From a bacterium (lineage in GTDB: Archaea; Thermoplasmatota; Thermoplasmata; Lutacidiplasmatales; UBA184), in NCBI GenBank assembly GCA_027309555.1, contig DAIDCO010000010.1:1-46309 (forward strand): a stretch of 46,309 bases of DNA, written 5' to 3'. Under the pieces are notes generated by a model. That model was not told where the DNA came from. It did no database searches and saw only the letters and a list, made by a program, of their open reading frames with translations. This document shows positions 30,463 through 34,530 of the stretch, piece by piece. Both the position numbers and the translations under genes were made by a program. Position 1 is the stretch's first letter, and each line of letters begins with the position of its first letter.

Positions 30463-31164
30463 GTGTCGACTGGATTCCGAGCCGCGGCGGGGATACCGGT
30501 GGTCGACGGTGTCGGCCGGATTCCCGGATTCGTCAACAGCTACACGTACCGGGAGGGAGACGAAACGCTGCTCATCGACACAGGCTTCTCCCGAAAGGCA
30601 GGGCCGATCGTTCGGGCGTTCCGAAATGCCGGCGTGCCGTTGGTCAGCGTGGGGAAGGTGCTCCTGACCCATCACCATCCAGATCACATGGGGGGCGCGG
30701 CGTATCTTCTCGAGGCGTCGGGGGCACCTCTGGCCTGTCACGCTGACGACGCACCATTCGTGAACGGCCAGATCACGCCTCCAATGCCCCTGCTGATGCG
30801 CCTCTTCGTCCGGACCCGTGCGGCCCCGGTCGCCATCCCACTGAAGGACGGGGACCGGCTCGGCCCGCTCCAGGTCCTCCACACGCCGGGACATACCCCG
30901 GGAGAGGTCGTTTTCTATCATCCGACTCGAAAGATACTCTTCTCGGGAGATGCCGTGGTCGAGCGGAAGGGGCGGCTCACGTTGCCGGCCCCGAACTTCG
31001 CAGCGAACTTGGACCAAGCGGTTCAGTCCGTGGCTCGGCTCCGAGAACTCGAGGTGGAGGTTCTGCTGCCGGGCCATGGCGCCCCGGTCACGAAGAATGT
31101 CTCCTCGCTCCTCCAGGACTTTGTTCAGCGAGCCTCGGCCCGAGGGATCGGGGGAGGGCGCTAG
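30463..31164 (+). CDS. Metallo-beta-lactamase-fold hydrolase
   Basis: A 233-aa MBL-fold enzyme. THHHPDHMGG is the HxHxDH metal motif, followed by HTPGHTPGEV (His), SGDAVV (Asp) and LLPGHGAP (His), all ligands for two zinc or iron ions. Related proteins are glyoxalase II, thioesterases and lactonases. The GTG at 30463, preceded by GGGGGAGA, is preferred. The ATG at 30406 adds a low-complexity Arg-rich stretch and lies in front of where transcription should begin if TTAAACC at 30388-30394 is the TATA box. The 3' end overlaps a PhoU-like gene on the other strand by 4 bases. Confidence 0.88.
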   Translation: MSTGFRAAAGIPVVDGVGRIPGFVNSYTYREGDETLLIDTGFSRKAGPIVRAFRNAGVPLVSVGKVLLTHHHPDHMGGAAYLLEASGAPLACHADDAPFVNGQITPPMPLLMRLFVRTRAAPVAIPLKDGDRLGPLQVLHTPGHTPGEVVFYHPTRKILFSGDAVVERKGRLTLPAPNFAANLDQAVQSVARLRELEVEVLLPGHGAPVTKNVSSLLQDFVQRASARGIGGGR

Positions 31165-32294
31165 TTCCCGGGTGGCGTACGCTCGCGGGAGGCCATCGAC
31201 ACTTTCCGGTCGGTTTTCGCAACCGTCTCGGGCTCGACGCTCCGGTTGATCGTCACCTCGTTGATGATCACGAGCATCTCGAGCGTCATCAGCAAGTTAG
31301 AGACGACCCGCTGGGCGGCCACGGCGACCCGTCGGTCGGAGATCCGTCGGGCCAGTAGGTCGCCGAGAGTAGAGTTCGCCGACAGCGCTTCCTCGATATC
31401 GTTCAGGCTCGCGTTCGCATCCACGACGGAGAGCTGGGTGAAGGCGTCCATCGTCCGCTCGAGCATCTCGTCGACGCGCTCCACCAGCGCGAGGAGGTCC
31501 GCAGTAGCCGTCTTCGGCAGCCGCTGGAGCCCCGTGAGGTTGTCGCCGAGCTCCCGAGCGACCCCCGAGGCGAGGTCCCCCGTCACCTCGAGCACCTTCG
31601 CGACCAGCCGATAGCCGATCTGGAAGTGGTGGCTCTCCACACCGATGTCCCGTGCGACCTGGAAGTCGTCCGAGGAGAGGAGCAGCTGCCGGACCATCAG
31701 AAGGTAGAACCGGTCGACCTCGTCCTCCATGGGGCCGAGCTGTTGGAGCGCGGCGCGACCCCCTCCGCTCAGCGCGGTCCGGCAGGCCGCGAGCTCCGTG
31801 CGGAGGATCCGCACTACCTGGCTCATCAGGCGATGGAACGGATACTTCCCGGGGTCGACGAAGTTCTGCACCTCGACCGCCCCGGACTCCTCCTCCACGA
31901 CGGTCATTCCGAGGACGTGCGCGACCGTGCGTCGCACTTCCTGGCGCTGCTCGGCCGTGAGTCCCGAGCGGGCCGTCACCAGGATCTGGTCCTGGCCCGT
32001 GATGTAGGCCCCGATCAGGAGGCGAGCGAGCAATTTCGGGGGCGCCCCGCTCGCATCGATCCGAAGGAGCCGCTGCCGGCGGTCGGAGGAGGTTCCGGCT
32101 CGGGCCGGACTGATCTCGAGCCGCCCTTCTCCGAGGTCGCGGAACCGCAGCGTGTCCCCGGTCTGGAGGTTCATCGAATCGGTCCATGCTTTCGGCAGGG
32201 TGATCGAGAGCGAGGAGGACCCGGTCCGCTGCACGCGTCGGGTGAACCCGGGCTCGTCCGGGCGCTCCTCCCTCTCCCTCCGAGCGCGGGGCAT
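31161..32294 (-). CDS. AbrB-PhoU domain phosphate uptake regulator-like protein
   Basis: A 377-aa protein with an N-terminal AbrB/SpoVT DNA-binding hairpin (about 19-65: RRVQRTGSSSLSITLPKAW, then GDTLRFRDLGEGRLEI) joined to a PhoU-like helical domain of about 280 residues (RLLRIDASGAP through NEVTINRSVEPETVA). Archaeal AbrB-PhoU proteins regulate phosphate transport genes. It is similar over most of its length to the protein at 33397-34530, which lacks most of the AbrB part. The two genes point outward on opposite strands around a membrane protein gene. A TATA box at 32317-32324 precedes the ATG. Confidence 0.88.
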   Translation of the reverse strand: MPRARREREERPDEPGFTRRVQRTGSSSLSITLPKAWTDSMNLQTGDTLRFRDLGEGRLEISPARAGTSSDRRQRLLRIDASGAPPKLLARLLIGAYITGQDQILVTARSGLTAEQRQEVRRTVAHVLGMTVVEEESGAVEVQNFVDPGKYPFHRLMSQVVRILRTELAACRTALSGGGRAALQQLGPMEDEVDRFYLLMVRQLLLSSDDFQVARDIGVESHHFQIGYRLVAKVLEVTGDLASGVARELGDNLTGLQRLPKTATADLLALVERVDEMLERTMDAFTQLSVVDANASLNDIEEALSANSTLGDLLARRISDRRVAVAAQRVVSNLLMTLEMLVIINEVTINRSVEPETVAKTDRKVSMASRERTPPGN

Positions 32295-32316
32295 CGCGCC
32301 CCCATCTTCCTCGGCT

Positions 32317-32324
32317 CATTAACG
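32317..32324 (-). promoter_or_regulatory. TATA box for the AbrB-PhoU gene
   Basis: CGTTAATG on the minus strand, 23-30 bases before the ATG at 32294. Confidence 0.5.
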
Positions 32325-32588
32325 GTCCCCCCCGAACTCTCCGGATGGGGCACGCCGGCTCGGGCCCCTGACAGCCTCTCCTTACTCTCCTTACGGCCGG
32401 GACCGGGGTCGCATGACTACCCCGGCCGATTCCCCTACGAGGCCTCCGATGCGACTGGGAGAAGGACACCGAGTGTTCGACCGAGCGAGCTGGCGCCGAA
32501 AGGTCCGAGTGCCGAACTGGCCCCGTCGGATGGAGAGCGGGAAGCGCTCCTCGTCGCTCGGGGCTCGACCGGTCCGGGAGCCGTAACC

Positions 32589-33350
32589 ATGGCGTTCATC
32601 GATTTCCTCGCGTTCCAGGAGGTCACTCTCCTGATCGCCGCGGTGATGATCGGCTACGTCGGCGTGGTCGCGTTCTTCGCCCTGCGCCGGAACGACGCCA
32701 CGGGATTGAAGGGGGTCCTCCGGGGCGGTGCGATCCCTCTCGGCAGCGTCGGTGCGATCGCCACGACGCTCGCATTGTGGGGCGAGGTGGCGTGGCCCCT
32801 TCCGGGCTCCTATAACATACTCTTCACGGACATCTACCTGCTCTTCGGGGTCACTCTGGTGATCCTCGCCGTCTCCATGGCCACCTCCTCGCGGCTGCAG
32901 TTCGCGGGTCTGTTCGCGCTCGTGGCTGGCGGGGTCACGATCGCCTACGGCTGGTCGGGCTACCACCTGGCCATGACCAAGGAGCCGCTCGAGACGTTCC
33001 TCATGTACGGAGCGTTCGGGCTCTCCGGGATCCTCTCGTTCCCGGCGACCCTGGTCGTGGACCACTATCTCACCCACCCGAACGGGACCGCCTTCGCCTC
33101 GAGCGCGGGCATCGCTTCGGCGCGCCGGCGCCCCTCGCTCCTCGGCGCGACCCGGGCCGCCCAGCCCATCGTCGGGGGCTCCTCGGGCGGATCGTCGGAG
33201 GCGACCTCGGACGCTCGCTCGACCTTCCGGGTGCCGATCTACATCAACGCCACGTTGATCGTGTTCGTGGCGTTCGTCGCGCTCGCGGGCATTGCCGCGC
33301 TGCTGTATCTCGACAGCACGTTGCCGGCCCACCTTGCGTCCGCGCCGTAG
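32589..33350 (+). CDS. Multi-spanning membrane protein between two PhoU-like genes (DUF981-like)
   Basis: A 253-aa protein with about seven hydrophobic stretches (the first at 11-32, the last at about 225-245). A Ser/Gly-rich loop of about 50 residues lies before the last helix. NILFTDIYLLFGVTLVILA and the run of small residues resemble archaeal DUF981 membrane proteins, but I am not sure. The start is ATG 32589. Much of the upstream frame is a shadow of the AbrB-PhoU gene. It lies between two related regulators, one on each strand, and 46 bases before the second. Transport or sensing linked to phosphate is a guess from context. Confidence 0.75.
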   Translation: MAFIDFLAFQEVTLLIAAVMIGYVGVVAFFALRRNDATGLKGVLRGGAIPLGSVGAIATTLALWGEVAWPLPGSYNILFTDIYLLFGVTLVILAVSMATSSRLQFAGLFALVAGGVTIAYGWSGYHLAMTKEPLETFLMYGAFGLSGILSFPATLVVDHYLTHPNGTAFASSAGIASARRRPSLLGATRAAQPIVGGSSGGSSEATSDARSTFRVPIYINATLIVFVAFVALAGIAALLYLDSTLPAHLASAP

Positions 33351-33396
33351 ACCGAACCTCCGAGGGAACCACCGCATAGGCCGCAGCGGGTCGGAC

Positions 33397-34530
33397 ATGT
33401 CCGCGGAGCGAACCCGTGTGCATGCCGACCCGCCTTTTCCCCGGGCCGCGCTCCTCGCGCCCCACGAGCTCGGCCGGGGTCGACTCGAGCCCGGGACCCC
33501 GAACGGGCGGGTCCAGAAGCGGCTCCGCATCGACGCGACCGGCGCGCCCTCGACCCTGATCGGCCGGCTGCTGGTGGGAAGCTACATCACCGGTCAGGAC
33601 CAGGTCGTCGTGACGGCTCTCGGGGGGTTCACGGCAGACCAGCGCCGGGAGATACACCGCGTCGTCGACCGACTTCTCGGAATGACGGTGGTCGGTGACA
33701 CCGCGGAGGCCCTGGAGGTCCAGAACTTCATCGACCCCTCCAAGTACGAGCTCCCCCGGCTGCTCCACCGGGTGGTCCAGGTGCTGCGCGGAGAGCTCGC
33801 CGCGTGTCACGACGCTCTCGTCGGAGGCGCCTCCTCCTCGCTCCGGGGCCTCGAAGGTTTCGAAGAGGAAGTTGACCGTCTCTATCTCCTGATGGCCCGG
33901 CAACTCCTCCTTTCCTCCGACAGCCCGCGGATCGCGCGGGACATCGACGTGGAGAGCCGCCACTACCAGGTCGGATATCGACTCGTCGCGAAGGCGCTCG
34001 AGGTCACCGGGGATTTGGTCTACGGGATCGGGACCGACCTCGATGCCCACCTGGCGGGCCTCCGCCGACTGCCTCCGTCCCTGACCAACGATCTCGCGCT
34101 GCGGATTCGGCGGCTCGAGGAGGTGCTGACGAGTACGATGGCCGGTTTCGCCGTGCTTTCGGTGGTCGAGGCCAACACGACCCTGAACCGAATCGCGGCC
34201 GCGCTCAAGCGGGATGCGACGTTGGGCCAGCGGATTGCCCGCCAAGTGACCGACCGGAGGGTCGCGGTGGCCGCCCAGCGGATCGTTTGCAATCTGGTCA
34301 TGGCGCTCGAGATGCTCGTCGTGGTCAACGAAGTAACGATCAACCGGGGCGTGGAACCGGAGACGGTCGCCCTCACCGGTACCCGTGTGGTAATGCTGGT
34401 ACGGGGGGTTTCCCGGGCTCACGACTCCCACGAGGTCCCCCGGCCCCTCGCGATAGCGTCGATCGAGGGAGGGGAGGCGACGCCCGAAAGGGCACCCCTT
34501 CGGCACGGCCTCCCGCGGGTGAGCGGGTGA
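33397..34530 (+). CDS. PhoU-like protein, paralogue lacking most of the AbrB domain
   Basis: A 377-aa paralogue of the protein at 31161-32294. From about residue 48 (KRLRIDATGAPSTLIGRLLVGSY) to about residue 335 (NEVTINRGVEPETVALTG) it aligns without large gaps. The first 45 residues keep only the end of the AbrB hairpin (ELGRGRLEPG) and have lost the strand and helix that contact DNA. A C-terminal extension of about 40 residues (Arg/Pro-rich) is new. It may dimerise with the full-length protein or act as a PhoU without DNA binding. The ATG at 33397 follows the membrane protein stop by 46 bases, so they are likely one transcript. Confidence 0.85.
   Translation: MSAERTRVHADPPFPRAALLAPHELGRGRLEPGTPNGRVQKRLRIDATGAPSTLIGRLLVGSYITGQDQVVVTALGGFTADQRREIHRVVDRLLGMTVVGDTAEALEVQNFIDPSKYELPRLLHRVVQVLRGELAACHDALVGGASSSLRGLEGFEEEVDRLYLLMARQLLLSSDSPRIARDIDVESRHYQVGYRLVAKALEVTGDLVYGIGTDLDAHLAGLRRLPPSLTNDLALRIRRLEEVLTSTMAGFAVLSVVEANTTLNRIAAALKRDATLGQRIARQVTDRRVAVAAQRIVCNLVMALEMLVVVNEVTINRGVEPETVALTGTRVVMLVRGVSRAHDSHEVPRPLAIASIEGGEATPERAPLRHGLPRVSG

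Follow-up and report, generated by a model that had tools for sequence, protein, structure and literature searches.

AbrB-PhoU proteins are widespread in archaea and are usually read as phosphate regulators. In Bacillus, AbrB itself is countered by an antirepressor, AbbA. Among the closest known systems is Thermococcus TK2245, a SpoVT/AbrB family protein containing a PhoU domain (PMC7325993). Protein A of this work shares its AbrB-type N-terminus and PhoU C-terminus; its locus differs from that of TK2245 in not lying beside phosphate genes and in having a divergently transcribed DUF981 partner, an AbrB-less duplicate (protein B) and a dedicated DNA repeat. With bacterial PhoU (Aquifex 1t72, Pseudomonas 4q25), A and B share the two-bundle fold, but they carry an extra alpha/beta domain in front, their sequence similarity is weak, and no pst genes adjoin them. 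The candidate role of B resembles that of AbbA, as a protein without a DNA-binding role that would tune an AbrB-type regulator; however, AbbA and AbrB are not paralogues, and the B-A interaction is putative. Within the library searched, AbrB-PhoU fusions appeared only in listings and as one haloarchaeal PhoU2, and DUF981 gave no literature.

The window, that is, the whole stretch of DNA that was analyzed, is the entire 46,309-base contig C11 from the 2.04 Mb genome of an uncultivated archaeon, whose nearest named relatives are the uncultivated Thermoplasmata archaea WH2.bin83, YP4.bin112, UBA184, JOPF047, JOPF086, and YF1.bin60. Gene A lies on the minus strand (32294..31161), followed by the divergent DUF981 gene (32589..33350, ATG start) and gene B (33397..34530), both on the plus strand. 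The neighbors of this trio encode a dienelactone hydrolase, an MFS transporter, a metallo-beta-lactamase-fold protein, a cation efflux protein, and a cyclophilin. Protein A (377 aa) consists of an AbrB domain, a small alpha/beta domain, and a PhoU part, and has orthologues at the eight trio loci found. Residues 22-66 match MazE/AbrB (PF04014) above the cut-off with an E-value of 4e-9, and an RRVQRTG-SSL-TLPK-type motif is present in every A relative. The PhoU match (PF01895, E 2e-4) reaches 22.0 bits and thus stays below the cut-off of 23.5, which the A protein of genome G049 passes at 24.7 bits. Judged from its sequence, A is a putative DNA-binding regulator of the AbrB/MazE (SpoVT-AbrB) type, with a candidate site only. 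Sequence searches against solved structures gave no meaningful match for A or B.

Protein B, also 377 aa long, had been taken in the preliminary description for a copy of A that matches it along the PhoU domain, has lost the first strands of the AbrB hairpin, and has gained a C-terminal tail, and each of these points was confirmed. The two proteins align from A residue 53 on, with 58% identity over 318 aligned residues (E 4e-124). Of the AbrB domain, only the final strand (GRLE, within LGRGRLE) is left in B; Pfam gives no AbrB match, and the motif is absent in all seven complete B proteins. In a check that had been set beforehand, none of these seven, all from the clade having B, kept the AbrB hairpin. 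The tail of approximately 40 residues is real, although poorly conserved across the B proteins and predicted to be disordered. A frameshift hiding the AbrB part was rejected, as no AbrB motif occurs in the other upstream frames and the relatives lack it as well. Likewise, the mechanically assigned start at TTG 33292 was rejected in favor of the ATG at 33397, because relatives carry in-frame stops close upstream of this ATG.

Built on 35 relatives, a structure model of B (mean pLDDT 83) begins with a disordered segment; a small beta-alpha-beta-alpha-beta-beta domain (residues 42-110) comes next and is followed by helices forming two three-helix bundles. Among solved structures, its best matches are those of PhoU (target TM around 0.72, probability 1.00, E around 6e-3), so B is A stripped of the AbrB domain, its alpha/beta and PhoU portions being left intact. 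On the sequence level, B scores 16.1 bits against Pfam PhoU, below the cut-off of 23.5, while the B protein of G015 passes at 24.3 bits. Of the PhoU-part residues conserved in 90% or more of the A relatives, nearly all are retained in B, which has nearly invariant residues of its own as well (S/E-P-R at A positions 210-212, D at 218).

The conservation of the block was searched in 78 genomes of the genus. The trio, with constant order and orientation, occurs in eight genomes, namely the window's own, six others with a complete trio (G016, G013, G002, G045, G049, and G015), and G017, where the contig ends within B. A seemingly broken DUF981 gene in G002 was rejected as such, the gap being a run of N in the assembly. 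A check likewise set beforehand, whether the trio remains linked in relatives, came out in its favor within the clade having B, and it is to this one clade of the genus that the trio is limited. Gene A stands without B in many relatives: A with a divergent DUF981 gene but no B was found in three genomes of the same genus (G037, G014, and G023) and in four of another genus (G087-G090), and A without an adjoining DUF981 gene in G004, G012, G018, and G076. A likelihood tree computed on the shared part places the B proteins in a single clade (support 99/98), whose sister group is formed by the A proteins from these genomes (99/95). From the gene distribution and the tree, it can be concluded that the A-DUF981 pair is older and that a single duplication of A gave rise to B. 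In G004, B was likely lost, since its A protein falls inside the A clade, yet no B gene stands beside it. The amino-acid sequence of B has evolved approximately twice as fast as that of A, which argues that a shared A-B interface is not strongly held; with a dN/dS of roughly 0.3-0.45, compared with around 0.18 for A, B is nevertheless under purifying selection. As a side observation, the A proteins of G013 and G017 (L052, L057) are identical over the tree columns and have the same intergenic stretch, though the genomes represent two species, which possibly reflects one population or a stray contig.

The intergenic stretch between A and DUF981 measures approximately 290 bp in the trio loci, and its best conserved portion in their alignment is a tandem 9-bp direct repeat, TCTCCTTAC TCTCCTTAC (GTAAGGAG on the A strand), written TCTCCTTACTCTCCTTAC and located at 32377..32394, which is a candidate operator. 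Its 20-base form is found as a single copy in the window's genome at up to three mismatches. With the 17-base form and at most one mismatch, ten copies were found in the 78 genomes, all ten upstream of an A gene. Apart from G015, where the copy deviates at more positions, the trio genomes each carry one, as do G004, G023, and G037; in G004, the repeat lies beside an A gene without adjoining B or DUF981 genes. Half-sites (GTAAGGAG) also stand upstream of further A relatives, other genera included. That the site tracks A even without B and DUF981 alongside makes A the simplest binding candidate. Around 25 bp before the start of A, the alignment shows a conserved AT-rich box (TTAA, 32319..32322, minus strand), which may serve as the TATA box of a leaderless transcript, and the repeat lies approximately 55-75 bp upstream of this box. 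Such a position would fit an archaeal activator or looping site more than a simple blocking repressor, although position as such does not tell activation and repression apart.

On the other side of the repeat, a conserved basic small ORF of 45 codons (32449..32586, plus strand) ends 2 bases before the DUF981 start codon. Start, motif (FDRAxWRRKxRVP, weakest in G049), and stop are kept across the trio loci, most of which have only a few bases between this stop and the DUF981 start, and all its matches at E < 1e-3 in the 78 genomes fall within trio loci. The ORF is likely, though not proven, to be coding, because its dN/dS is below 1 but it is short. In A-DUF981 pairs without B, a different ORF of approximately 20 codons was read by eye at the same place (L061, L062, L064, L087, L088, and L089); this mini-ORF before DUF981 often ends in Gly-Gly-Gly-Ala or similar.

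The preliminary description had proposed a regulatory circuit consisting of a DNA-binding form, a non-binding partner, and a possible sensor. The circuit as such is favored by the conserved repeat, which stands beside A only and in the divergent promoter region, whereas the phosphate role assigned to it found no support, as discussed below. Gene order, the single duplication, the AbrB-less form of B, the purifying selection on it, the dedicated repeat beside A, and the receiver domain that fills the AbrB slot in one B and, in degenerate form, in another can be read directly from the sequences. Beyond these, we propose a self-contained module, to which we give an even chance of being right. Protein A would bind the tandem GTAAGGAG repeat, located between the two divergent promoters, and control both its own gene and the operon of small ORF, DUF981, and B. 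As a DNA-binding-free partner, B would associate with A via the alpha/beta and PhoU parts that it has retained, in mixed oligomers most probably, and would thereby exert feedback on A that reflects the state of its own operon and perhaps of the DUF981 membrane protein. The DUF981 protein would be the membrane input. The PhoU fold and PhoU-part residues retained in B speak for this module as well; its faster evolution and the many relatives in which A does its work without B speak against it.

The DUF981 protein (253 aa; Pfam PF06168, E 4e-37) is, as described earlier, a multi-spanning membrane protein between A and B, with six predicted helices and an Arg-rich loop before the last one. According to the model, this loop is poorly ordered, and an alignment of 24 relatives shows a conserved R-A-x-Q-P motif in it. 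PhoU acts on a transporter or a kinase, and by analogy B may not touch A at all, but instead work as a soluble PhoU-type modulator on the DUF981 protein of its own operon, leaving A as merely the transcription factor of that operon. We regard this as a real possibility, if a rather unlikely one. It gains from the loop and from the gene arrangement, B being always downstream of DUF981 on the same strand and 19-57 bp away in five genomes. However, the loop motif also occurs in DUF981 proteins without adjoining A or B and is therefore not specific to B.

The same explanation is favored by the genomic surroundings of DUF981 paralogues elsewhere and by a receiver domain in one of the B proteins. 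Elsewhere in the genus, four genomes (L097, L098, L101, and L102) have a DUF981 paralogue between the genes of a histidine kinase and a response regulator; where the domains were checked (L097 and L101), these are a PAS histidine kinase and a REC-winged-helix response regulator. Possibly, this arrangement represents a conserved signaling unit. It resembles the trio in placing DUF981 beside signaling genes and, where B has a receiver, in the REC domain of the downstream regulator; the regulator there combines REC with a winged helix, while here A is AbrB-PhoU and B is PhoU or REC-PhoU. In two further genomes (L094 and L095, in G038 and G010, respectively), DUF981 was seen directly downstream of a gene for a mandelate racemase/enolase-type enzyme, a setting unlike those with signaling genes. 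UreI, the urea channel of Helicobacter, ranked first among the fold matches of the DUF981 model (probability 1.00, yet E 0.13); an assignment as an AmiS/UreI channel was rejected, as this fold lead came without a Pfam match and profile comparison gave a probability of 0.5%.

In the B protein of G049, the AbrB slot ahead of the PhoU part is occupied by a receiver domain (PF00072, E 6e-10). This domain has 35% identity to a DUF981-linked response regulator; its Asp, Ser, and Lys are retained and one acidic residue is replaced. In G015, the slot holds a degenerate receiver (E 0.02, below the cut-off) that has retained the Asp but lost the Thr and Lys positions, and in the window's B a receiver domain is absent. 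The grouping of the two B proteins in the tree is weak (86/46), so that a receiver gain in both and a loss in the others are not told apart. Together with the paralogues flanked by kinase and regulator genes, the receiver in some B proteins points to general signaling around DUF981.

A third explanation, in which the ratio of A to B sets a threshold for phosphate genes, follows the preliminary description and draws on the PhoU fold, yet we consider it highly improbable. The genome keeps phosphate-type transport loci with their own PhoU and AbrB-PhoU proteins on other contigs. On C64, a cluster of binding protein, two permeases, ATPase, and PhoU is pstSCAB-phoU by layout, its PhoU having 238 aa and two PhoU domains. 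On C63, the gene of an MFS transporter with a fused DUF47 (PhoU-like) domain (L105, 1639-3717) adjoins another AbrB-PhoU gene, and this locus is more likely than the trio to encode the phosphate-linked regulator of the genome. In addition, none of the trio neighbors is a phosphate gene, the repeat occurs only at the trio in the window's genome, and both A and B remain below the Pfam PhoU cut-off. Least probable of all is that the duplicate B is decaying and has no function of its own, a view for which its faster evolution, its disordered and poorly conserved ends, and the A gene of G004 without an adjoining B might speak, but against which stand the intact ORF in seven of seven complete cases, a dN/dS well below 1, the nearly invariant B-specific residues, and the domain added to B in some lineages.

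Returning to the self-contained module, a broader version of it can be outlined, which we put forward only tentatively and consider rather unlikely: a duplicated transcription factor may have been made into a signaling partner by removal of its DNA-binding part, replaced by a receiver in some lineages, resulting in a one-operator circuit in which DUF981 and B would set the activity of A via mixed PhoU-domain oligomers. The natural domain swaps at one position (AbrB, nothing, or receiver) suggest a general module for signaling and interaction in the PhoU part. For the AbrB-PhoU proteins, the block represents a case without a phosphate link and with a precise candidate DNA site, and DUF981, a family of unknown function, gains a signaling context.
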